Assembly (NCBI RefSeq): GCF_002608075.1
Contig: NZ_LAHA01000002.1
Coordinates: forward strand, 101,540-165,539
Source of the DNA: Nostoc linckia z4
GTDB lineage: Bacteria; Cyanobacteriota; Cyanobacteriia; Cyanobacteriales; Nostocaceae
Reading direction: 5' to 3'
DNA length: 64,000 bases
The notes under the pieces: model-generated
The model's input: only the letters and a program-made list of their open reading frames with translations
Told to the model about the DNA's origin: nothing
Database searches by the model: none
Shown: piece after piece, positions 29,099 to 42,588 of the stretch
Layout of the letters: every line of letters begins with the position of its first letter
Numbering within the stretch: the first letter of the stretch is position 1
Made by a program: the position numbers and the translations under genes

Positions 29099-30379
29099 TT
29101 ACTCAGGTACGGTCAATCCTTTGAGTGGTTGGGAAATTTCTGTTTTTCCCAAATTTTTGCCCTGAATTAAGACTCCAAAACCACCCAGTCCTGTGGGATC
29201 TAAAAGCTGGTGTAGTGCTTCCCGTCGCTGTAGTAATTGCGAGAGGGGTTGCTTTTGATAAGAAATAGCAGCAATTCGTTCCCCTAATCCCAAGGCCATC
29301 AAAAATAATCCTTGCTGGATAAAACCAACATTTTCTAAACCGCAGCGATCGCCCCAGCGTGACAAAGCTGTAAAGTCAACATGGGCAGTGATATCTTGTT
29401 GTCCAACGTTGATATAAGGATTGTCATGGTAACGGTGTTGGTAATAGCACTGTAGCGTTCCTTGCCATCGCCTCGGATTATAGTAACGAGTCGCAGGGTA
29501 GCCATAATCAATTGTTAGCACATAGCCACGCTGCAAGCGGTCTGCTACTATACTCAACCAGGAAAGAGCAGCTAAATTAATTTCACTGCGGTAACCATCT
29601 GGGTATGCACCTGAGGTTAAATCGATTTCCACTAAGTTGAAATACTCGGCTAGTTGAGGCGTAGAGGGTTTTCCTGTGACTTCGATAAATGATGACGCGG
29701 GGACATAGGGACGCGGGGACGCGGGGACTGAGGACGCGGGGAAATCGGGACGCGGGGACGTGGAGAATTCTTTCACCGCGTCCCCGCGTCTCCCACTCTC
29801 CGCGTCTTCTTCATCTTTCTGTGTTGTCACATAAATTTCTCGCAGTTCGCCGTTTTCTAGGGTGAATTGATGGACTGGAAAGGCATCAACTAATTCATTA
29901 GAAAAAAAACAGCCCACAATGGCATTTGATGGGATATCCTCTAGATTGCACCAACGCACGGGCAAATCTTGTAAACGTTTTTGCTGTTGTTGCCTTAAAG
30001 TCGGTGACTTTTCAATAATTACATACTCTATGGCTGTAAAAAAATCCGGGTATTGTACCTGGTAATACTTAAGGATATGCAATGCCAAGAGTCCTTGACC
30101 TGCTCCCATTTCTACCAGAGAAAAGGTTACGGGTCGCCCTAAGATTTCCCACATTTGCAAAAATTGTTCTGCAAGTAATTCGCCAAAGTCAGCGCTGAGG
30201 TTGGGAGAGGTAAAAAAATCACCACCTTGAAAACCAATTTTCACTGCATCGCTGGAATAATAGCCGTGTTCGGGGTGATATAGTGCCATATCCATGAATT
30301 CGGCGAAAGTAATTCGCTGTTGCGGACTGGTGGTAATATGATGAGCGATCGCTGTACACAATGCTGGATTTGAATCCAT
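29099..30379 (-). CDS. MidA/NDUFAF7-type SAM-dependent methyltransferase (COG1565)
   Basis: The 426-residue protein shows the family's N-terminal FAEFMDMALYHPEHGYYSSD and GDFFTSPNLSADFGELLAEQ, the SAM motif LVEMGAGQGLLALHIL, CFFSNELVDAFPVHQF, and LTIDYGYPATRYYNP, then the C-terminal ALGLGERIAAISYQ. Mitochondrial members methylate an arginine of the complex I subunit NDUFS2; NdhH, its cyanobacterial counterpart, is encoded 10 kb away, but that bacterial target is only inferred. Residues ~186-231 are a Pro/Ser/Arg-rich insertion encoded by a GC-rich repeat. A single-subunit cytosolic enzyme is expected. Confidence 0.88.
   Translation of the reverse strand: MDSNPALCTAIAHHITTSPQQRITFAEFMDMALYHPEHGYYSSDAVKIGFQGGDFFTSPNLSADFGELLAEQFLQMWEILGRPVTFSLVEMGAGQGLLALHILKYYQVQYPDFFTAIEYVIIEKSPTLRQQQQKRLQDLPVRWCNLEDIPSNAIVGCFFSNELVDAFPVHQFTLENGELREIYVTTQKDEEDAESGRRGDAVKEFSTSPRPDFPASSVPASPRPYVPASSFIEVTGKPSTPQLAEYFNLVEIDLTSGAYPDGYRSEINLAALSWLSIVADRLQRGYVLTIDYGYPATRYYNPRRWQGTLQCYYQHRYHDNPYINVGQQDITAHVDFTALSRWGDRCGLENVGFIQQGLFLMALGLGERIAAISYQKQPLSQLLQRREALHQLLDPTGLGGFGVLIQGKNLGKTEISQPLKGLTVPE
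29687..29823. repeat. GC-rich palindromic repeat inside the MidA-like gene
   Basis: GACGCGGGGACATAGGGACG and GACGCGGGGACGCGGGGACT are followed by the inverse CGCGTCCCCGCGTCTCCC. The block is in frame and encodes the low-complexity segment containing SPRPDFPASSVPASPRPYVP. Its base composition contrasts strongly with the gene around it. Confidence 0.85.
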
Positions 30380-30481: not shown

Positions 30482-31330
30482 TTACTGCGGCAGTTTACTT
30501 TTATATAAAAGAAATACGCTATTCTGATCTGGATTTTGTCTTTCACTAATTTCAAATAAGCCAGATGCTTTTAAAACACCTTTTAGTGTTTTAATGCCAT
30601 ACTTCTTAGGCGTGCAGGTAGGGTTTTGGAGCTTAATAAATTCGCCTGCTCTTGCCAACAAAATCATACCGTCTATTTTTTCTATATTTATTTCTGCTAA
30701 ACGCAGTAATTTTACAATCTCTGTATTTTCCCATGTTGTTTCAGACGGATTAATCAGATTGATATACTCAACGCCAGAAGAAGTAATATCTGCCTTGAAT
30801 TGCTTATATAAAATTTCTATTTTTGGGTTAGATTCGGCATAATTTTCCCGAAGAAAAACAAGCACACTAAATACAAAAGGTGTTATCTCTTTATAAAATG
30901 AAATTGCTTCTTGGTACTGTGATTCTAAATCGTTAATGCAAGTTCTACAATCTTCTTGATTCTCTAAGATATGTAAACCTTCCGACCCACCAAAGTGATG
31001 AACGAGTTTGTTCCGTTCGGCAACCATCTCTCTTAATTTATCGGCAAAGTAATCAGGGTTATAATCCACAGAGTCAATAGTGCTATAGTCAACAAAGTCA
31101 ATAATGTCGTAATCCACAGACTCAATAAAGGCATTTATTAAATATCCTAGAGTCTTTAACTTAGCTGTTTCTCTGTACTTCCGAAAGCTATCGATACCCT
31201 TTGCACTACCATCTGAGTGTATATATGGAAGAAGCAGTTTCAAGCCTTTTTCGATTTGCTGAAACATCAATATATTTCGTCCTATTTTTCTTAGGACTTC
31301 ATTTACTAAGTCTGGAAGCTCACTTTTCAT
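30482..31330 (-). CDS. HEPN-like / LOTUS (OST-HTH) fusion protein
   Basis: The 282-residue protein is helical at first (about 1-170) and contains MVAERNKLVHHFGG, that is R106-N107-x3-H111, the RN-x3-H (Rx4H) motif of HEPN ribonuclease-like domains. Residues ~200-282 fit a LOTUS/OST-HTH domain, with GMILLARAGEFIKLQ and KKYGIKTLKGVLKASGLFEI; such domains bind RNA, often G-rich. A short Asp/Tyr repeat (VDYDIIDFVDYSTIDSVDY) at 72-90 is encoded by a small nucleotide repeat. A role as an RNA-targeting effector is an inference; the motif may instead mark a non-catalytic HEPN-like fold. It lies in the accessory minus-strand block. Confidence 0.6.
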   Translation of the reverse strand: MKSELPDLVNEVLRKIGRNILMFQQIEKGLKLLLPYIHSDGSAKGIDSFRKYRETAKLKTLGYLINAFIESVDYDIIDFVDYSTIDSVDYNPDYFADKLREMVAERNKLVHHFGGSEGLHILENQEDCRTCINDLESQYQEAISFYKEITPFVFSVLVFLRENYAESNPKIEILYKQFKADITSSGVEYINLINPSETTWENTEIVKLLRLAEINIEKIDGMILLARAGEFIKLQNPTCTPKKYGIKTLKGVLKASGLFEISERQNPDQNSVFLLYKSKLPQ

Positions 31331-31998: not shown

Positions 31999-32571
31999 TT
32001 AACTTTCGAGAATATTACGGTCTGTTGCTAGAGTTTGGGCTGCTGTTTGCATCATTTCCATATTTGATTGCGACCAATTATGAGGCCCTTGGCAGTGATG
32101 TGCTATTAATAATCCCCATAATCCTCTAGGTATCACAATTGGGACAACGAGGTTGGCGCGAACATGGAGACTGCGGAGAAAATCTCGGTGACAAGACTCC
32201 ATTGATTCTAATTCAATATCAGCGATCGCCTTTACCCGTCCTGCCAGATATAAAGCAGCATATTCATCGTTAAAACAATCATCTGGCCCAGTGGAACCAA
32301 GAATTGAAAATTCTTCAGAACTCAACGATTCAAAAGTTACCTGTCCTTCCCACTGACCATAAAAATAATACAAAACTACGCGATCGACCTGAAGCATTTC
32401 TCTGAGTTGATTCGTCGTTTCCCTGACTAACTCATCCCGGCGTATCCTTCTGACAAGGCGAGAGAGTAATTTTTCCAAACCCTGCTCGCGGCGATTGTGG
32501 CTTTGGTTTGATTCTGAGTGAGGATGAATTTGCACGGTTTTAAAATTACGACTAAGTAAATGCTGCCGCAC
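31999..32571 (-). CDS. Stand-alone cyanobacteriochrome-type GAF protein (DXCF class)
   Basis: The 190-residue protein is essentially one GAF domain (about 38-187). It carries DDCF at 97-100 (C99), aligning with the DXCF second-cysteine motif, and SCHRDFL with C127-H128, aligning with the cysteine-histidine that attaches the bilin in cyanobacteriochromes. The surrounding GRVKAIADIELE, VRANLVVPI and LWGLLIAHHC are typical of that family. DXCF cyanobacteriochromes usually switch between blue/violet and green/teal light using phycoviolobilin. No output domain is present, so it may be a light-sensing partner or bilin carrier. Bilin binding is predicted, not shown. Confidence 0.75.
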   Translation of the reverse strand: MRQHLLSRNFKTVQIHPHSESNQSHNRREQGLEKLLSRLVRRIRRDELVRETTNQLREMLQVDRVVLYYFYGQWEGQVTFESLSSEEFSILGSTGPDDCFNDEYAALYLAGRVKAIADIELESMESCHRDFLRSLHVRANLVVPIVIPRGLWGLLIAHHCQGPHNWSQSNMEMMQTAAQTLATDRNILES

Positions 32572-32889
32572 TTAATATAGTAATTTATTAGACCTTATTT
32601 AAATACATTTTTGTATTTATAGCAGCAATTCAATTTTAACGTAACATAATACTAGTCAAGCACTTTGATAAAATTTAAATAAATTATTAAGAAAATAAAA
32701 TTTTTAATTCATACCATTAAAAAATCAAAATTATAAATTCAAAGTTAAGATTTTGATAAAATTACAAATAATATGTTTAGTGTTTTTTTATAAGAATTGA
32801 GCCAATAAGTATACTTAAGACTGCAATATAAAAAGTCAATTTGTATTCATAGTTACAGATATTTGTGATGCTGTTAATATTCCTAGTTT
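32572..32889. other. AT-rich gap before the methyltransferase 3' end
   Basis: This 318-base stretch is strongly AT-rich (runs such as TTAAATAAATTATTAAG) and has no repeat, hairpin of note or open frame. It should carry the promoter of the GAF gene, read on the minus strand. Confidence 0.5.
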
Positions 32890-35800
32890 TTATGCAGAGC
32901 ATGGGTACTCTAAGTTTCTAAACATTGGAATAAAGTTACGGTAAGCTGACAATGCTGCTTCTTTAACGGTTGCACTCACAATGGGAAAGGTAGTGAGGAT
33001 GTAGCTAAATTCATCTTCGGTTAAACCGTAAAGGTGTGCTACCATGCCATCGAGTTCTGCGCGGAGTTTGGCGCGTTCTGTTTCGTCGGTAACGCCTTGT
33101 TGATGGGAACCTAAATTGACTTCTTGCGCGAGTTCGTCAAATTCTGGTGTGGTGCAGATGAGTTTGGCGGCGCGTTGTACAATGTCGTTGAAGTAGCGAT
33201 CGGTTTTTGTTAAGCGTGGGATTGGTAGTTGATATAAATAAAAAGAGTTAAGATTCGTAGTCATACGTGAGCGTAGAGTATAGTCAACTACGAAGGTATT
33301 TAGTAATGAAGAAAGAACGACTAACTCTGAATTTGATATTCTTAATTCATTATATCTATCCGTGTCGTGATGGAAAGGAAAATTTACTGTAAGCGAGTTA
33401 CCAGCAAATGACCAAGCTGGAATTACAGTAGATATTAAGGTTCTTTCATTGGTGTTAGAAGCTATTTTGCGTATTGCCAGTCTATAAACCTCATAATCAT
33501 TTTTTAAATCTTTAGTAATTTTTCCACTAAATTTTATTCTTTTAGCGCGTTTCTCCAAAAACACTTCTCTTAAATCTGATTCTTTAATCCAGTAATGAGG
33601 TTTATCATAATCATGCTGAAAATGCCAAATCATTCCTCCTTCATATAAGGTATACTTGGTTGGCAATTGCTGAAAATATTTTTTTGAGCGAGTCATGTGA
33701 AGTTCTTCTCCGTAAAGCTCAAGTCCCCAACCCAACTTGGAATCAGAAAGCAACGGATAATTCAAGAACTTTTCAGTAATCTCTAAGTCTTCTCTACTCC
33801 TAAATTCCATTATTGACATAGAATCAGGTGAGAAACGGCGTACTAATTTAACACTGATAGAGAAGTTTTCATCATTAGGAAATTTTTGCAGTTCTTGTAC
33901 ATCATGGCGCATGAATGACGCTGGGAAATCTTCCGTTTTATTGCCCTTCTCAAACGTGAGAACAACAAACTTAAAACTACGATGAACTCCTTCAAAGATT
34001 TCTTTTCGGTTTTCAAAGCAGAATAATCCAGATATTTGAGTTTGGTTAAACAACATTTCTCGTAGTTTTTTTGCTCCTAAGTCAGTATAGATACCACTAG
34101 GGACAACGATTCCACATTCACCACCCGGAGTTAATAAATTCAAGCACTGTTCTAAAAATATTTTATAAAGATTAATATCAGTGCCTATCTTCTTACCGTT
34201 TACAATAGGAACTTGATTTTTATACTGTTGAGATAAACGGTAATAATCACTGATGTAAGGAAACTGTTTTTGATAATCTAGCCAAGCCGCAGCAATTTCT
34301 ATATCTTTAAGAAGTTTTTCTTGTTCCTGCTCAAAGGTATGAATGTCCATCTTCTTTTTTGTCACCAAGTCACTATATTGTGCGAAAAACTCTTTAGCTT
34401 GTGGCTTAAATATCTCCCAAGGTGGATTAGTGATAATTGCATCAAAGCCGCCACGTTCTAAAATTTTGTCAAAGTGATAACCCCAGTGAAACGGCTTCAA
34501 AGCTGTAATATCCTCAATCTTTAAAACACGCTTTTTTGATTTACCAGTTAACTGAACTTCCTCGTATTTAATGCCCAACTTTTGACTAAACTCATCCAAC
34601 AATAAAAGATTTAATTTCTTTTGTGATTCGTGATTAAGGTTGTCAATAGATTTACGTAAGTTCAATAACCTTGCATCTTGATGGGTTCCCAGTTCTCCAC
34701 CAGAGAGTTTTTCCTCACCAGGAATAAAGGCGTGTTTTTTGTACAATTCAACAGATTTATTCTTTTCTTCTAAAATCTTTTTATAATTATCTGCTGCTAA
34801 AGACTGTAATAGATTTCCTTGTAGTGAATTTCCCACTGCATCAAAAGCAGTGTCATCTACTTTAATCAACCCAATCAGTGAATTACCCGCCATAATATTA
34901 AAATCAATATTAGGCAATGGTTCTAATTCTTCCACTTCATTAGCCGAAGAAACCAAAGCTAAGAAAAGACGCAGTTTAGCAATTTCCGTTGCTTCCTCCA
35001 TGATGTCTATACCATAGAGGTTATCAGAAACAATCCGCTTTTTGATAAAATAAGGTAGTGAGGGATGGGAATTTTCTATATTTTCAAGCTTCTTTTTAAG
35101 AGTGTCATCACCCATTAACTGAATTGTTCCAAACACCGCACTATAAACTTGGATTAGCGTTTTCATCGCCGCCACAAGAAAAGCACCAGAACCGCAAGCT
35201 GGGTCAAGAATTGATAAATTAGGAAGAATATCTTCCATTAGTGAACGACAGACATTTGTATCCAGTTTGATGAGAAGTTCGTTAATATCCTCAAAAGGCT
35301 TATATTTATCAGGTAATGCATTATTTACGCGGTCTAAAATTAATTTGTGAATAGTTCTGTCACAAAGATATTCTGTAATTTGTGGTCTAGTATAATAAGC
35401 TCCAAAAGCCTTTTGATTAATGTATTTTTCAAATATATATCCTAAAACATCGGGGTTAATTTCGTCGTCTTTTCCTTCCGGCGTATCATCTAAATTCCAA
35501 GAATAACGCGCAAATAAATCGAGAACTTGCTCAAACGCTTCATCAATGATAGAAATTTGATATCTTTCTTCAATATGATGTTTGAGAAATAAACCTCCAT
35601 TCAGGTATTTAACCTTTCCTACCAATTGTTGTACAGATAAATCGCGTTCAATCTCAGGTTTAGCAAAGCTTTCAAAAAACAAAGCCTTGAGAAATTCAGC
35701 ATAAAAATGATTTTCACCTTTTTGCTTGCTTTGTTCAAGCTTATTTTGCAGATAATTTAAATCCTTGTTATCAATAAAACCTTTACGTTGAAGAAAATAA

Positions 35801-36420
35801 ACAAACATCAAGCGATTGAGAATTACCGATGTATACCAACGTCTATCTGTTTCATTGTCGATTCCTTTCACAAACTGCAAAAACTTCTGGTGTTGTTCTT
35901 GAAATTCCTTATAAAATTTTTTAGTTACAGGTTCAACATCAAAACCGCGTTGTAGCTTATAAGCAATTTCGACTACAGTCGGTTCACCATGTTCTAATTC
36001 AGTAATATCAATAACTAAAGAACCAAGCTTACTTAAAAATAAGTCTCCTGGTTGACCTTTTACATATAAATGGTCGCGGACGTAACTTTTACTTCCTTCT
36101 CTTTTAACCCAATACCAAAGACTACGCGTGCGTTCTTCGGTAATAAAAATTAGCAGATTTTCAGCTATCAGTTTAGTAATTTCTTGATGAATAGCAACTC
36201 TAACTTTCGCCTCTGGTATTTTTCCATCAGTTGCAGTGATTTCAAAGATTGCAACACCTGAAAGTTCAGCAATCTTTTTGTATTGATACGTCTTATTCTC
36301 AATCTTTAACGCAACAGCCTTTTGCCTTGAAGGTTTAGACCAACCTAATTCTTCTATAAATAAATCACCAAATTGAAAGTTATGGAGTAAATCGCGTGTT
36401 CGTTGAAAATTAAGCGACAT
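32890..36420 (-). CDS. Large Eco57I-type N6-adenine DNA methyltransferase (restriction-modification or DISARM-like)
   Basis: The 1176-residue protein has a class I SAM methyltransferase core with motif I DPACGSGAFLVAAM (about 404-417) and motif IV TNPPWEIF (about 661-668), the NPPW form that methylates adenine N6. The long insertion between them, LYGIDIMEEATEIAKLRLFL, and NIMAGNSLIG are typical of Eco57I-like and PglX/DrmMI-like enzymes. The first 200 residues (LFIEELGWSKP, ENLLIFITEERTRSLWYWVK) resemble the N-terminal part of such proteins; no clear PD-(D/E)XK nuclease motif was seen. The C-terminal 350 residues should recognise the DNA target. It probably works with the PLD-SNF2 helicase gene upstream, though a hairpin terminator separates them. 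Confidence 0.88.
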   Translation of the reverse strand: MSLNFQRTRDLLHNFQFGDLFIEELGWSKPSRQKAVALKIENKTYQYKKIAELSGVAIFEITATDGKIPEAKVRVAIHQEITKLIAENLLIFITEERTRSLWYWVKREGSKSYVRDHLYVKGQPGDLFLSKLGSLVIDITELEHGEPTVVEIAYKLQRGFDVEPVTKKFYKEFQEQHQKFLQFVKGIDNETDRRWYTSVILNRLMFVYFLQRKGFIDNKDLNYLQNKLEQSKQKGENHFYAEFLKALFFESFAKPEIERDLSVQQLVGKVKYLNGGLFLKHHIEERYQISIIDEAFEQVLDLFARYSWNLDDTPEGKDDEINPDVLGYIFEKYINQKAFGAYYTRPQITEYLCDRTIHKLILDRVNNALPDKYKPFEDINELLIKLDTNVCRSLMEDILPNLSILDPACGSGAFLVAAMKTLIQVYSAVFGTIQLMGDDTLKKKLENIENSHPSLPYFIKKRIVSDNLYGIDIMEEATEIAKLRLFLALVSSANEVEELEPLPNIDFNIMAGNSLIGLIKVDDTAFDAVGNSLQGNLLQSLAADNYKKILEEKNKSVELYKKHAFIPGEEKLSGGELGTHQDARLLNLRKSIDNLNHESQKKLNLLLLDEFSQKLGIKYEEVQLTGKSKKRVLKIEDITALKPFHWGYHFDKILERGGFDAIITNPPWEIFKPQAKEFFAQYSDLVTKKKMDIHTFEQEQEKLLKDIEIAAAWLDYQKQFPYISDYYRLSQQYKNQVPIVNGKKIGTDINLYKIFLEQCLNLLTPGGECGIVVPSGIYTDLGAKKLREMLFNQTQISGLFCFENRKEIFEGVHRSFKFVVLTFEKGNKTEDFPASFMRHDVQELQKFPNDENFSISVKLVRRFSPDSMSIMEFRSREDLEITEKFLNYPLLSDSKLGWGLELYGEELHMTRSKKYFQQLPTKYTLYEGGMIWHFQHDYDKPHYWIKESDLREVFLEKRAKRIKFSGKITKDLKNDYEVYRLAIRKIASNTNERTLISTVIPAWSFAGNSLTVNFPFHHDTDRYNELRISNSELVVLSSLLNTFVVDYTLRSRMTTNLNSFYLYQLPIPRLTKTDRYFNDIVQRAAKLICTTPEFDELAQEVNLGSHQQGVTDETERAKLRAELDGMVAHLYGLTEDEFSYILTTFPIVSATVKEAALSAYRNFIPMFRNLEYPCSA

Positions 36421-36490
36421 AATTTACAATGTTTAGAAAATAGAAAAGCAGCATGGTAAATTTGCCACTCAGAAAATAAATCTGTGGCTA

Positions 36491-36520
36491 TAAAAAATTA
36501 AGTCCGCCAGCGCGGACTTT
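36491..36520 (-). terminator. Intrinsic terminator between helicase and methyltransferase genes
   Basis: On the minus strand the stem AAGTCCGC / GCGGACTT (8 bp, four-base loop) is followed by AATTTTTTATAG. It lies 71 bases before the methyltransferase start, so the two genes are not simply one transcript. Confidence 0.7.
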
Positions 36521-36656
36521 AAGAAACGCTCTTTATACGAGTTAAATTTTTACCCATGCTTTTTATACTTTATAAATCCTTTATACAAAATTCGGCTCAG
36601 TGATATTATTGAGTTATCTAAAGGCCGACTTAGTTTTGTGCGGGCGTAGTTTTTAA

Positions 36657-36980
36657 TTGTCAGGTATATTTGCTGATTACTTTATCAAAATCTCTAATTG
36701 CTTTCTTAAAATGAGCTTTTACTTACTCAAAATCTCTAATTGCTTTCTCAAAATGAGCTTTTACTTACTCAAAAGAAGCTTTTGCTTACTCATTTTGGTG
36801 TTTTCCGCAAGTAAAATAAGCTTTGACTTATTCAAACCCCAGTTTGCTTACTCATTTTAGTGTTTTCCGCAAGCAAAAGAAGCTTTTGCTTATTCATTTT
36901 GGTGTTTTCCGTAAGTAAAATAAGCTTTGACTTTCTCAAACCCCAGGTTGCTTTCTAATTTCGGTGTTTTCCGCAACATA
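36657..36980. repeat. AT-rich imperfect direct repeats between the helicase and methyltransferase genes
   Basis: Units with CAAAATCTCTAATTGCTTTC, AAAATGAGCTTTTACTTACT and CATTTTGGTGTTTTCCGCAA recur two to four times at spacings of about 40-60 bases. A 67-codon frame runs through part of it, but its product is just the repeat translated. The block is unlike the purine/pyrimidine repeats elsewhere. Confidence 0.8.
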
Positions 36981-37181
36981 ACAAAGACGCGATAAATCGC
37001 CGTGTCTACAAAAGACAATACGGTTCACTTAAGGCTATAACTCTTTTTTTTAACGAACCGCAGAGGCGCGGAGGGCACAGAGAGAAGAGAGAAAGAGAGG
37101 GAAGAAATGCTTAACTGAACTGTATTGCTATTAAAGACTTCTTATTGTAAAGACGGCGATTTATTATGTCTCTTACATTAA

Positions 37182-40100
37182 TTACGAATTACAAAATAAT
37201 CCCAAAGAACAAATAATTTGAGGTTCTCGTTTTTCTAGTTCTTCAGTCACAATACACAAACGGTCATCCATTCGTAACGCCACAACTAACTCAGCCAACT
37301 GCTGATTATTAATACCGCTTCTTAGTTGGCGGTTGAGAGTATCAATGGCTGACTGTCGCAAAGGATAACGGTAAATCTCATCGATTGCTTTTAAAAGTTC
37401 TTCGCTGACAAATAGTGTTCCCTGCATTTCTTGAACATAACTTTTCAGCCGTTCATAGGTGCGGAACCTTGCACCTGATGGTCGCCCCAATTGACCGCCT
37501 GCATTTTTCTCTTCTTCAGCAATCAGTTCAGTACCCTTTTTTACTAATTCGTGATGCTGTTTATCTTTGGGTATGGCTGGGGTAGATTCTTCACACGCTG
37601 CTACCCGCAGAACCGCTAATTGTGATTGAGTAACGCTGTTACCATCGCGGTCAACATAAATCAAAGAATCATTTCCCTCGGTGGTTTTCATATAAAGCAA
37701 TACCCCCTCCGGTTGGACAGGTTGCGGAGTATGGGCGCGGGTAGAATAAACCACATTTTGCATTTCCTCAATGGTTTTTTTCAAGCCGGGATTTCCATCG
37801 GTGGCTTTCTTCCAGATTTGAAATGCTTCTGAAGTCAAGTCTACTTCTGTATCTTCTTCGCCATCTAAAATTCCAGATTTCTCGTTGTAGAGGTCGAGAA
37901 TTACTCGTGCATCATCATCTTCAAAAAATGCTTCATCAGTTCCCACGACTTCCGCATTTTCTTGCAGTCGTTTACGGAGTCGTCCCCGCAAATTAATAAT
38001 TCGTTCTACTCCCTCGGCTGGTAAAAAAGAATAACAAAGAATTTTATCAGCATTTTGTCCAATGCGGTCTACTCTTCCTGCACGTTGAATTAAGCGAATA
38101 ATCGCCCAAGGTAAATCCCAATTAACAATAATTGCACAGTCTTGCAAATTATGACCTTCACTTAAAACATCCGTGGCGATTAAAATACGTAACTCATTTG
38201 ATGATGAAATTTGTTCGCGTTTACCATTACTTACAGGACTAAATCTTCCCGTGATTATTGTCGGGTCTTTAGATTGACCTGTTACCCCTGCCACATTAAT
38301 AATATGGTTTAATTGCAAATTGTCTACAAGGTAGCGGACTGTATCGGCAAACTGTGTGAAAATTAGGACTTTATCTTGGGGGTGAGTTTCTGTTAGCAGT
38401 TTGATTAAAGCAGCAAGTTTTTCATCTACTTGGGGATTCCAATTACCACACTGTTGCAAGACATTAATCAATGCTTTGGCATCTTCTAATAAATCCCGCT
38501 TCAATTTTTTAATATCAAAAACTGTAGAAGGTAACCACTTAAATCGTCGTTGGTATTTAGTTATATATTCTTGATAAATTAATTCTGCTCTTTGACGAAA
38601 TACTTTTTCTGTTTTAGATAATTTTTCATCCTCCTTTAAAAAAACAGTTGCTTCTTCTGTTTCCACTGGCAGCAAAGTATTGGAATCATCTTCTTCCGTT
38701 TCTGTATCAAACAAAGCTGCTGCCACAGAATCGGCATCTTCATCATTGTTACTTGTATCTAATAACTCTGCATCCTGAGTTCCAATCGGAATATTAAGCC
38801 CCTGCTCTAAGGCATATAAATAAATGAAGTTCCGTAAAATGTGGCGTTCAATTGATTGCATAAAAGCAACACCACTACTTTCTAAACGTTTAAATAAATT
38901 AGTTCGAGAAAAACCCATTAACCTCCTACCGCCACGAAATAAACTATTAATCAAACGTTGTTCTATATCTGTAAGCGGCTGTTTGGGTTTAGCAATCAAG
39001 TAATTTCCTAATCCATAACGAGGTAAATTAAGTTGATTAATTACTTCTATGACTGACTCTGAGTAAAGACGAGAATAAAAGTCAGTGTCAGCACCTTCTA
39101 AAGGAAACTTGAGACTCCGGGGTAGGCGCTGGGGAAAATAAGAACGTCTCCCATCAGCAAATTCTAAATATTTACGTCCTGTTTCATCTGTGCAAGCATA
39201 ATTATCTTTAATAAAAGAGCGAGTGCGTCGCACCATGTAGCGTTTCATCAATTCTCGCCAGTCATCAGGGTGTTCGCTTTTCTCAAAGGCAGCTAAGGAA
39301 CGTACAGAACATTGATGTTTTCTAATAAACTCTAATTCTCCTACCGAACTGCCACCAAGTTGATTAATTAAAGCTTCTGGTCTTAATCCTAAATCTTGGT
39401 CTTCTGGCACAAATAGCCGCAGTTGGGCAGAAAGGTCAAGATAACTTTTATTGTAAGGAGTAGCAGATAATAAAATACATTTACTTTCATTAGCAGTAAT
39501 ATATTCTGTAATTGCTCGATAACGTTTACCTTCCCGGTTACGTAAGTTGTGACTTTCATCAATTAATACAATTCGGTAACGGCGGAGTTTTGGTAATTTG
39601 TTTTGTACTTGACTAATTGGCATAACTTCGGCGAGTAACCGATAGTTATTGACATATTCTTGCCACATTGATACCAAGTTTTTTGGGCAAATAATTAATG
39701 TTTCTAAATAACAATCTTCTTGTAATATCTTGGCTAGGGCGGTTCCAACTAAAGTTTTACCCAAACCAACTACATCCCCAACTAAGACGCCACCACGCTT
39801 AGTTACATGACGTGCTGCTAGCTGCACGGCGGCTTTTTGAAAATCAAATAAGTTATTAAATTCGCGGGGAATGCGAAATTCTGAAAGTCCAGCGATCGCT
39901 TCATGGGATAAGTGATAAGCTATCTTCAGGTAGATGTAGTATGGTGGGATTAATTCTGCTCTTGCCCAACTGCGATCGATAATTTCAGCCAATTCTTGGG
40001 AAATATCTACACAACCGTAATCTTGCCAGCGATCGCTAAACCACTTTTGCAGTTTATTACAAGCATCGTGGTCTAAAATATCAACATTCAATTCCCCTTG

Positions 40101-40610
40101 TTTTGCCAGTCCGGGAAGAGTCAAATTACTACTACCCAAGAATCCCACAGTTGGGGTATTAGGGTCATTGCGATGCACAAGATATAACTTGGCGTGTAGA
40201 GAATGACGGAGGAAAAGTTTAATAATTAGTTTCTGAGTTTTTAGCTGATGACTTAACCGCCGCAACCCCGCTTCATCCAGATTAGTCGGCGCACCAATAG
40301 TCAACTGTTGGCGAAATTCCGCCGCCATGCGTTTTTTAAACCGCACGATGGCGCTATTATCAATCCGTCCATCACTACTACCAAGGGTAAATGCCGCTTG
40401 AACTTCATCACTCGGTAAACTTTGCATCCCTATTAACAAACGACAACAAGCATTTTCACTACCAACATACTGTTCGATTAAATCATCAATTCTTCGCCAA
40501 CCTCTGAGGTTAAAGTAGCCAACACAAAAATCTGCCCGATAAGAGACTTTCAGGGTTTCTCGTAAAATCGGTAGCAGTTGTAAATCAATGTTGTCAAAAA
40601 TCCGGGGCAT
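37182..40610 (-). CDS. PLD-like nuclease domain fused to SNF2-type helicase
   Basis: The 1142-residue protein has an N-terminal PLD-like region (about 20-210) with LRHSLHAKLYLVHRND and VGFLGSSNLTLPGL, the single HxK-GSxN form seen in helicase-linked PLD domains. The SNF2-like motor follows: Walker A GDVVGLGKT (about 277-285), DESHN (about 347-351), LSATPYNKS and motif VI QRAGRVDRIGQN (about 843-854). A C-terminal region without known motifs ends the protein. DISARM DrmD/DrmC and related defence proteins combine SNF2 motors and PLD nucleases with an adenine methyltransferase; here both functions are in one polypeptide. The neighbouring methyltransferase supports a defence role. Confidence 0.85.
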   Translation of the reverse strand: MPRIFDNIDLQLLPILRETLKVSYRADFCVGYFNLRGWRRIDDLIEQYVGSENACCRLLIGMQSLPSDEVQAAFTLGSSDGRIDNSAIVRFKKRMAAEFRQQLTIGAPTNLDEAGLRRLSHQLKTQKLIIKLFLRHSLHAKLYLVHRNDPNTPTVGFLGSSNLTLPGLAKQGELNVDILDHDACNKLQKWFSDRWQDYGCVDISQELAEIIDRSWARAELIPPYYIYLKIAYHLSHEAIAGLSEFRIPREFNNLFDFQKAAVQLAARHVTKRGGVLVGDVVGLGKTLVGTALAKILQEDCYLETLIICPKNLVSMWQEYVNNYRLLAEVMPISQVQNKLPKLRRYRIVLIDESHNLRNREGKRYRAITEYITANESKCILLSATPYNKSYLDLSAQLRLFVPEDQDLGLRPEALINQLGGSSVGELEFIRKHQCSVRSLAAFEKSEHPDDWRELMKRYMVRRTRSFIKDNYACTDETGRKYLEFADGRRSYFPQRLPRSLKFPLEGADTDFYSRLYSESVIEVINQLNLPRYGLGNYLIAKPKQPLTDIEQRLINSLFRGGRRLMGFSRTNLFKRLESSGVAFMQSIERHILRNFIYLYALEQGLNIPIGTQDAELLDTSNNDEDADSVAAALFDTETEEDDSNTLLPVETEEATVFLKEDEKLSKTEKVFRQRAELIYQEYITKYQRRFKWLPSTVFDIKKLKRDLLEDAKALINVLQQCGNWNPQVDEKLAALIKLLTETHPQDKVLIFTQFADTVRYLVDNLQLNHIINVAGVTGQSKDPTIITGRFSPVSNGKREQISSSNELRILIATDVLSEGHNLQDCAIIVNWDLPWAIIRLIQRAGRVDRIGQNADKILCYSFLPAEGVERIINLRGRLRKRLQENAEVVGTDEAFFEDDDARVILDLYNEKSGILDGEEDTEVDLTSEAFQIWKKATDGNPGLKKTIEEMQNVVYSTRAHTPQPVQPEGVLLYMKTTEGNDSLIYVDRDGNSVTQSQLAVLRVAACEESTPAIPKDKQHHELVKKGTELIAEEEKNAGGQLGRPSGARFRTYERLKSYVQEMQGTLFVSEELLKAIDEIYRYPLRQSAIDTLNRQLRSGINNQQLAELVVALRMDDRLCIVTEELEKREPQIICSLGLFCNS

Positions 40611-40981: not shown

Positions 40982-42166
40982 CTACCTATCCACAGAACCC
41001 ATAATCACGTCAATACTGCCGAGAATTACCACAATATCAGCAACCTTCATTCCACGCAGTAAATGTGGGAGAATCTGGAGGTTGTTGAAGTCAGCAGGGC
41101 GAATCTTCCAGCGTGCAGGGAAGACGTTATCATCGCCTACTAGATAAATTCCGAGTTCACCTTTGCCACTTTCTACACGGGCGTAGATTTCACCTTTGGG
41201 AATTTTGAAGGTGGGGGAAACTTTTTTACCGATGTACTGATAATCAAAAGCGTCCCACTCAGATTTTTTACCTGCGGCTAAACGCTTGGCTTCGAGATTT
41301 TCATAAGGGCCGCCAGGAAGTCCTTTAATTGCTTGGCGAATAATCTTCACAGATTCGCGCATTTCCCGCATCCGCACCACGTAACGGGCAAAGCAATCGC
41401 CAGCAGTTTCCCATTGTACATCCCAGTCGAAATCGTCGTAGCATTCGTAATGGTCAACTTTCCGCAAATCCCATTTCACGCCAGATGCGCGTAACATCGG
41501 GCCAGAAAGTCCCCAGTTAATTGCTTCTTCACGGGTGATAGTCCCGATACCTTCAACACGCCGGCGGAAGATGGGGTTATCGGTTACCAAGCGTTCGTAT
41601 TCATCAATTTTGGGTATCAAGTAATCGCAGAATTCCGCACACTTATCTACCCAGCCATAAGGCAAATCAACCGCCACGCCACCGACGCGGAAGTAGTTAT
41701 TATTTACCATCCGGTAACCTGTGGCGGCTTCCCACAAATCATAAATCATCTCCCGTTCCCGGAATTGGTAAAAGAAGGGAGTTTGAGCGCCAACGTCAGC
41801 GAGGAAGGGGCCGAACCACAGCAAGTGGTTGGCGATGCGGTTCAACTCCAGCATAATTACGCGGATGTAACTAGCGCGTTTGGGAACAGCGACACCTGCT
41901 AGTTTTTCCGGTGCGTTGACGGTGACGGCTTCGTTGAACATTCCCGCAGCGTAGTCCCAGCGACTAACATAGGGGACGTACATGACGTTAGTGCGGTTCT
42001 CAGCAATTTTTTCCATTCCTCGGTGGAGGTAGCCAATAACTGGTTCGCAGTCAACGACATCCTCGCCGTCCAAGGTGACAATTAGCCGCAGAACTCCGTG
42101 CATTGAGGGGTGGTGTGGCCCCATATTTAGCACCATCGGTTCAGTGCGGGTTTCTATTCTGGTCAT
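40982..42166 (-). CDS. ndhH: NAD(P)H-quinone oxidoreductase subunit H (NDH-1)
   Basis: The 394-residue protein corresponds to the 49-kDa (NuoD) subunit of complex I, lying in the hydrophilic arm near the quinone-binding cavity. Signatures are the N-terminal [57 protein letters not shown] and the C-terminal [12 protein letters not shown]. It takes part in respiratory and cyclic photosynthetic electron flow on thylakoids. The ATG at 42166 ([11 protein letters not shown]) is preferred over 42193 because it gives the usual 394 residues. The MidA-like methyltransferase gene at 29099 could modify this subunit, by analogy with mitochondria. Confidence 0.97.
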
Positions 42167-42588
42167 AGATTTAGTGTTCTCCCGTTGTGACAATTTTGAA
42201 TCGAACCGCTAAGATGCCAACTAGACACAATTATTTTGTCTGTCAGGGATTGACGGGGGGATGGGGAGACGCAAGGACGAGGAGAATCAAAATTTTCCCA
42301 TGTCCTGACATTAGCCTCAACTTTCAATTTGACAGACTATTAGAGGCAATACTTTTAGGGACTTCCAAGTAAAAAAATATTCCACAGAAGACTGTTAACT
42401 GTTAACTTTTGACCGTTGACCGTTGACAGTCAGCAGTCAACAGTGAACAGTCAACGACCTGAATCGGAACAATTTATTTTTTGGAGTTCCCTTAAATCTA
42501 TTGCCCATACAGGGGTATGTTTGAGAGGGGGTGACAGAGGAGAGGTTTTACTTGATGTTTCATTTTGTTGCACTTCTTCAACTATTAT
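42167..42588. other. Divergent promoter region of ndhH and rsmH
   Basis: The 422-base gap carries a MITE-like element at 42358-42491 and a small repeat segment near 42253-42300. Promoters of both genes must lie here, but no clear -10 box was singled out. Confidence 0.5.
42358..42491. mobile_element. MITE-like element with 26-base imperfect terminal inverted repeats (copy B)
   Basis: The left end GGGACTTCCAAGTAAAAAAA and the right end TTTTTTGGAGTTCCC (start GGAACAATTTAT) are imperfect inverted repeats of about 26 bases. The centre consists of GTTGACTG-type heptads and their inverse. Size and ends match the element at 46657-46782, and the left part matches 23400. No transposase is carried. Confidence 0.75.

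Follow-up and report, generated by a model that had tools for sequence, protein, structure and literature searches.

The minus strand of a 64,000-nucleotide stretch of Nostoc linckia z4 DNA (the window) encodes, probably at 31999..32535, a small protein made up of a GAF domain only. We assign this protein to the DXCF-type cyanobacteriochromes, an assignment supported by its predicted fold, the positions of its two cysteines and the lack of a partner domain, with bilin binding and a photocycle predicted. Characterised cyanobacteriochromes are mostly modules of large signalling proteins. Here, our probable reading is of a DXCF cyanobacteriochrome reduced to its photosensory domain, which would act as a blue/green dual-cysteine switch, signal in trans and have its supply set by FurA. 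The bilin-photoswitch part of this proposal is very likely on our analysis, and signalling in trans is the weaker part. As a cyanobacteriochrome GAF protein it is of a kind already known, with a probable described counterpart in Alr3356 of Anabaena PCC 7120.

Residues are numbered below in a 190-codon frame that extends the gene at its 5′ end, unless stated otherwise. A Pfam scan returned GAF (E 8.9e-18, residues 45-182), together with another GAF model and a DUF of marginal significance (E 0.0098), in agreement with the first-pass annotation, which had described a protein lacking kinase, cyclase or methyl-accepting domains; there is likewise no PAS or PHY partner, the 178-190 aa holding the GAF domain only. 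An NCBIfam search gave no family above its cut-off for the GAF protein. The motifs on which the annotation was based, DDCF (C99), SCHRDFL (C127-H128), GRVKAIADIELE, VRANLVVPI and LWGLLIAHHC, all read as it had quoted them. By sequence, the best-matching solved structures are all bilin GAF domains, i.e. 6oap (a dual sensor histidine kinase), miRFP670nano3, TePixJ 3vv4 and RcaE 8k9o. Alignment with TePixJ (phmmer against 3vv4; E 9.4e-23) places C99 on C494, the Cys of its DPCF motif, and C127-H128 on C522-H523. In TePixJ, C522 is described as linking bilin C3(1) and C494 as linking C10, and D492, H523, Q526 and N535 as lying at the pigment (PMC6955287). The DDCF codons (D97-F100; 32272..32283, minus strand) would hence carry the second, C10-linking Cys, and those for Cys127-His128 (32188..32193, minus strand) the canonical C3(1)-linking Cys of helix alpha4 with its His.

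An AlphaFold2 model built from 119 family members (mean pLDDT 90.9, pTM 0.82) was compared with the PDB (Foldseek, VIA-align 2), and the best matches were bilin-binding GAF domains, so that the predicted fold is of the bilin GAF type. The model begins with a long N-terminal helix (model residues 8-48). As far as the alignment and the model tell, C99 and C127 do not fall outside the bilin pocket. The top fold match, miRFP670nano (6mgh; Z 25.0), is also a single GAF domain but an engineered one, derived from the cyanobacteriochrome GAF NpR3784 according to an abstract, and its motifs are DRYF instead of DXCF and CY instead of CH. The GAF domain of TePixJ (3vv4, 4glq, 6p58), a blue/green DXCF sensor, matches closely in fold (4glq; Z 23.1, rmsd 1.9 over 148 residues) and shares both pocket cysteines, their spacing and the Asp, His and Asn. 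In contrast to the Nostoc protein, it is one domain of a 940-residue receptor (PMC6955287), identity is about 32-35%, and its Q526 is replaced by Phe in the stand-alone family. Together, the TePixJ alignment, the predicted fold and the invariance of both cysteines across the family bear out the DXCF-type assignment.

The annotation had placed the protein in a 190-codon frame at 31999-32571. This frame is present, but on the minus strand (frame 1 of 31999-32571 on the plus strand has stops throughout), and its start at 32571 is unlikely. Instead, the real start is probably the GTG at 32535, giving 178 aa. An aligned codon is found at this position (codon 13) in 45 of 46 Nostocaceae-type rows (43 GTG and 2 ATG), whereas the window alone among the 46 has GTG at codon 1, immediately preceded by TAA. 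The remaining row without an aligned codon 13 is L046, a relative from Nostoc sp. CCCryo 231-06 with an interrupted frame, either a pseudogene or an assembly error. Across 19 Nostoc loci, dN/dS was 0.237 for codons 13-190 (171 pairs) and about 1.9 for codons 2-12, the latter a rough figure from only 11 codons. Codons 13-190 are under constraint and the 11 codons before them, which show no sign of purifying selection, are not. Alignment of the upstream regions of Nostocaceae-type loci also revealed a conserved -10-like element, TTACTATA (32576..32583, minus strand), part of a likely promoter by motif matching only. Its 3′ end is 4 bases upstream of the first GTG, and therefore transcription would start about there, with the 12 codons from that GTG to the preferred start (32536..32571, minus strand) probably being 5′ untranslated. 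In the 178-aa protein, C99 becomes C87 and C127-H128 becomes C115-H116.

Conservation was counted over 139 distinct family sequences. C99, F100, C127 and H128 are each found in all 139, D97 in 132 and N140 in 136, and the invariance of both cysteines is more than chance. The second Cys is thus never missing in the family, unlike in 17 of the 51 GAF stretches tabulated from the same genome (some overlapping), which have CH and lack a Cys in the DXCF stretch; a further 13 of the 51 have both. Since both cysteines and the His are fixed, the Asp is nearly so, and the DXCF Cys serves colour tuning (PMC11284453, PMC5578081), a working dual-Cys photoswitch is predicted. The position of TePixJ Q526 is Phe (F131) here and in 127/139, and the photocycle may therefore differ from that of TePixJ. 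DXCF sensors convert reversibly from blue to green, teal or orange by way of a labile C10 thioether. As for the colours here, position 78, which appears to be the beta2 Phe site, is Val in 137/139 sequences and in TePixJ, and Phe (in GEF) in many other GAF domains of the same genome. On this basis blue/green rather than blue/teal photoconversion would be expected, and we favour a green photoproduct. A teal photoproduct had been considered when Phe80 and Phe131 were matched to the trapped-twist Phe, and was rejected because the Phe of the paralog GEF falls on position 78.

In the proposed mechanism, phycocyanobilin would be taken up and linked by Cys127 (C115 of the 178-aa protein), Cys99 (C87) would add a second, labile thioether to bilin C10, and the pigment may isomerise to phycoviolobilin, as it does in typical DXCF members. 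Isomerisation of C15=C16 and breakage of the second link would then convert a blue-absorbing dark state to a green-absorbing state and back. Lacking an output domain, it would pass its signal to a separate protein through contacts that depend on light. Judging from Alr3356, the supply of the sensor probably rises when FurA repression is relieved (i.e. under iron or redox stress).

Alr3356 is reportedly among the seven blue-absorbing GAF domains of Ma et al. 2012. In PCC 7120, the preceding gene, alr3355, is ndhH (PMC8147232, PMC12923008), and alr3356 itself is called 'similar to phytochrome', and its product is presented as a cyanobacteriochrome whose GAF domain binds a chromophore (PMC4788461, where Ma et al. 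2012 is cited for it). Given its place after ndhH and its membership of the same kind, the window gene is a probable positional ortholog of alr3356, by synteny and not by sequence. Turning off furA raised alr3356 expression 3.94-fold, and FurA binds the alr3356 promoter in vitro and represses the gene (PMC4788461). This control was shown in PCC 7120, not in the strain of the N. linckia z4 protein. Upstream of the window gene lies a weak FurA-box-like site (32677..32695, minus strand) with 15/19 matches to the published consensus, a score reached or exceeded by 18 of 200 sequences simulated from the dinucleotide composition. The best such site falls in the same orientation, 158-180 bases before the start, in 15 of 38 other rows. 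The FurA-box-like site of the window is suggestive only.

The link to FurA bears on two alternatives. The protein could be a carrier, buffer or scavenger that binds phycocyanobilin covalently for storage or detoxification and takes no part in signalling. A single domain with no output would suit this, as would the 2.01-fold increase of pcyA upon furA turn-off, although FurA did not bind the pcyA promoter (PMC4788461). Nevertheless, covalent attachment would suit a carrier poorly, and the family keeps the C10-linking Cys99 without exception and the DXCF Asp almost always, both residues that serve photochemistry, which makes a carrier unlikely. Of the two roles first suggested for the protein, a light sensor working through protein contact fits better than a bilin carrier, because the colour-tuning second Cys never varies. 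Less likely still is a bilin-free thiol switch, in which the Cys pair responds to redox or metal and the domain acts as a readout of redox or iron status. Two invariant cysteines and the FurA control of the PCC 7120 counterpart would be consistent with this, but D97, H128 and N140, whose TePixJ counterparts serve the bilin, are also kept, and the cysteines are 28 residues apart, as in TePixJ.

Next to the GAF gene, shared neighbours are found in Nostocaceae. Of 145 family loci (the window copy included, and a few representing the same contig twice), 85 have flanks of at least 5 kb on both sides and 31 have less than 2.2 kb on both sides. In 16 loci including the window, the GAF gene is preceded on its own strand by ndhH, at a distance of up to 650 bases in 10 cases, and a PF02636 methyltransferase gene lies downstream in 31; all loci with either neighbour are Nostocaceae-type. 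In the window, ndhH (40982-42193, minus strand; PF00346) is 8.4 kb from the GAF gene, beyond an Eco57I-type adenine methylase gene and a PLD/SNF2-like helicase gene (32890-40610, minus strand). These two are related to DISARM DrmD and a PLD anti-phage protein, with matches far under the cut-off, and occur in 14 and 11 loci, respectively (window included). Where ndhH is close to the GAF gene the pair is not in between, and it therefore resembles a defence island that entered a pre-existing gene order. The PF02636 methyltransferase gene (29099-30379, minus strand) flanks the GAF gene on the opposite side from ndhH. Between it and a glyoxalase-like gene, a 282-aa protein with an OST-HTH/LOTUS-type match is encoded (30482-31330, minus strand), which is not among the most shared neighbour families.

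The PF02636 methyltransferase is presumably NDUFAF7-like. Mitochondrial NDUFAF7, which is of the PF02636 type, methylates NDUFS2, the NdhH homolog, and the clustering of the methyltransferase gene with ndhH may be meaningful. In Nostocaceae the GAF gene is placed between the two, and its product might be a sensor tying NDH-1 assembly or activity to light colour. However, neither neighbour was found in any locus of the distant set, nor were the methylase and helicase, and the order may be plain shared ancestry; we regard an NDH-1 sensor as improbable.

No conserved partner gene was found beside the GAF gene in the distant loci, outside Nostocaceae. Of these 93 loci, 28 carry an upstream frame no more than 120 bp away on the same strand and 21 a downstream one; some of these frames may not be genes. 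They include a CoaBC-type flavoprotein, an ABC transporter ATPase and, in one genus, a response regulator. These adjoining frames differ by lineage, and an operon partner was rejected as a candidate. Frames of a kinase-type cluster occur near the gene, on either strand, in 18 distant loci (the two members scanned were both histidine kinases), which is probably near chance level for such genomes. In a genus-level group (g36; L157, L158, L159, L160 and L162), the GAF gene is followed some 55-115 bp downstream by a co-directional response-regulator gene, and that of L157 has Response_reg and Trans_reg_C domains. This regulator is a possible partner there, in an arrangement not seen elsewhere.

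The stand-alone state described in the first-pass annotation is shared by the whole family. Relatives at E 1e-45 or better were found in 96 of the 195 genomes sampled from the order, that of the protein itself among them, as two copies in G090 and G107 and one in the others at this cut-off. At 1e-42, they were found in 44 of 292 genomes sampled across the phylum, 5 of the 44 belonging to other orders within the class. Nostoc, Scytonema, Fischerella, Planktothricoides and Chamaesiphon are represented among the 34 named loci. None of the 145 loci showed a fusion to another domain, with relatives gathered at these strict cut-offs, which a more distant fused relative could escape. Stop-to-stop frames are 164-214 aa in 142/145 loci. 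The exceptions are the interrupted frame of L046 (129 aa) and two longer ones, L120 (260 aa) and L107 (341 aa), whose additional sequence we take by its appearance, and not on the strength of a domain scan, to be 5′ read-through.

In its own genome, by contrast, the protein is an exception. The genome has 58 GAF matches, and the other 57 are all in open frames of at least 429 aa. The next best match is 41% identical. Multi-domain DXCF GAFs of this genome (e.g. L002 and L004) resemble the protein in having DTCF or DPCF with CH, at up to 41% identity, but lie within frames of 735 and 907 aa and fall outside the stand-alone clade. In a quick 84-row tree (41 family members, 41 own-genome GAFs and two PDB sequences), a branch with SH-aLRT 100 sets the family apart, with all 41 own-genome GAFs on the other side; the root is a midpoint only and the paralogs come from one genome, so that multi-domain relatives elsewhere are possible. 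The size of the other GAF frames could suggest that the protein is what remains of a larger photoreceptor after loss of the output half, but 0/145 fusions, the SH-aLRT 100 branch and the dN/dS of 0.237 make this so improbable that we rejected it. In conclusion, this is a long-conserved stand-alone family, kept under purifying selection.

Since no member has an output domain, either a second protein receives the signal or the role is a non-signalling one, and we favour the former. The case for signalling in trans rests on the absence of an output domain, because no partner is conserved nearby outside Nostocaceae. More broadly, and with slightly less than even confidence, we suggest an orphan photoswitch, encoded by a single gene of its own in roughly half of the genomes sampled from the order, which would pass a colour signal in trans to a shared partner in an amount set by FurA. 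It would then act as a free light-dependent ligand, not as the head of a kinase or chemoreceptor. A conserved stand-alone cyanobacteriochrome is a natural minimal photoreceptor, the partner of which must be a separate protein, and a small single-domain switch offers a plain starting point for optogenetic tools. A light-dependent partner could reveal a new signalling route, and the link to FurA would couple light colour to iron or redox status.
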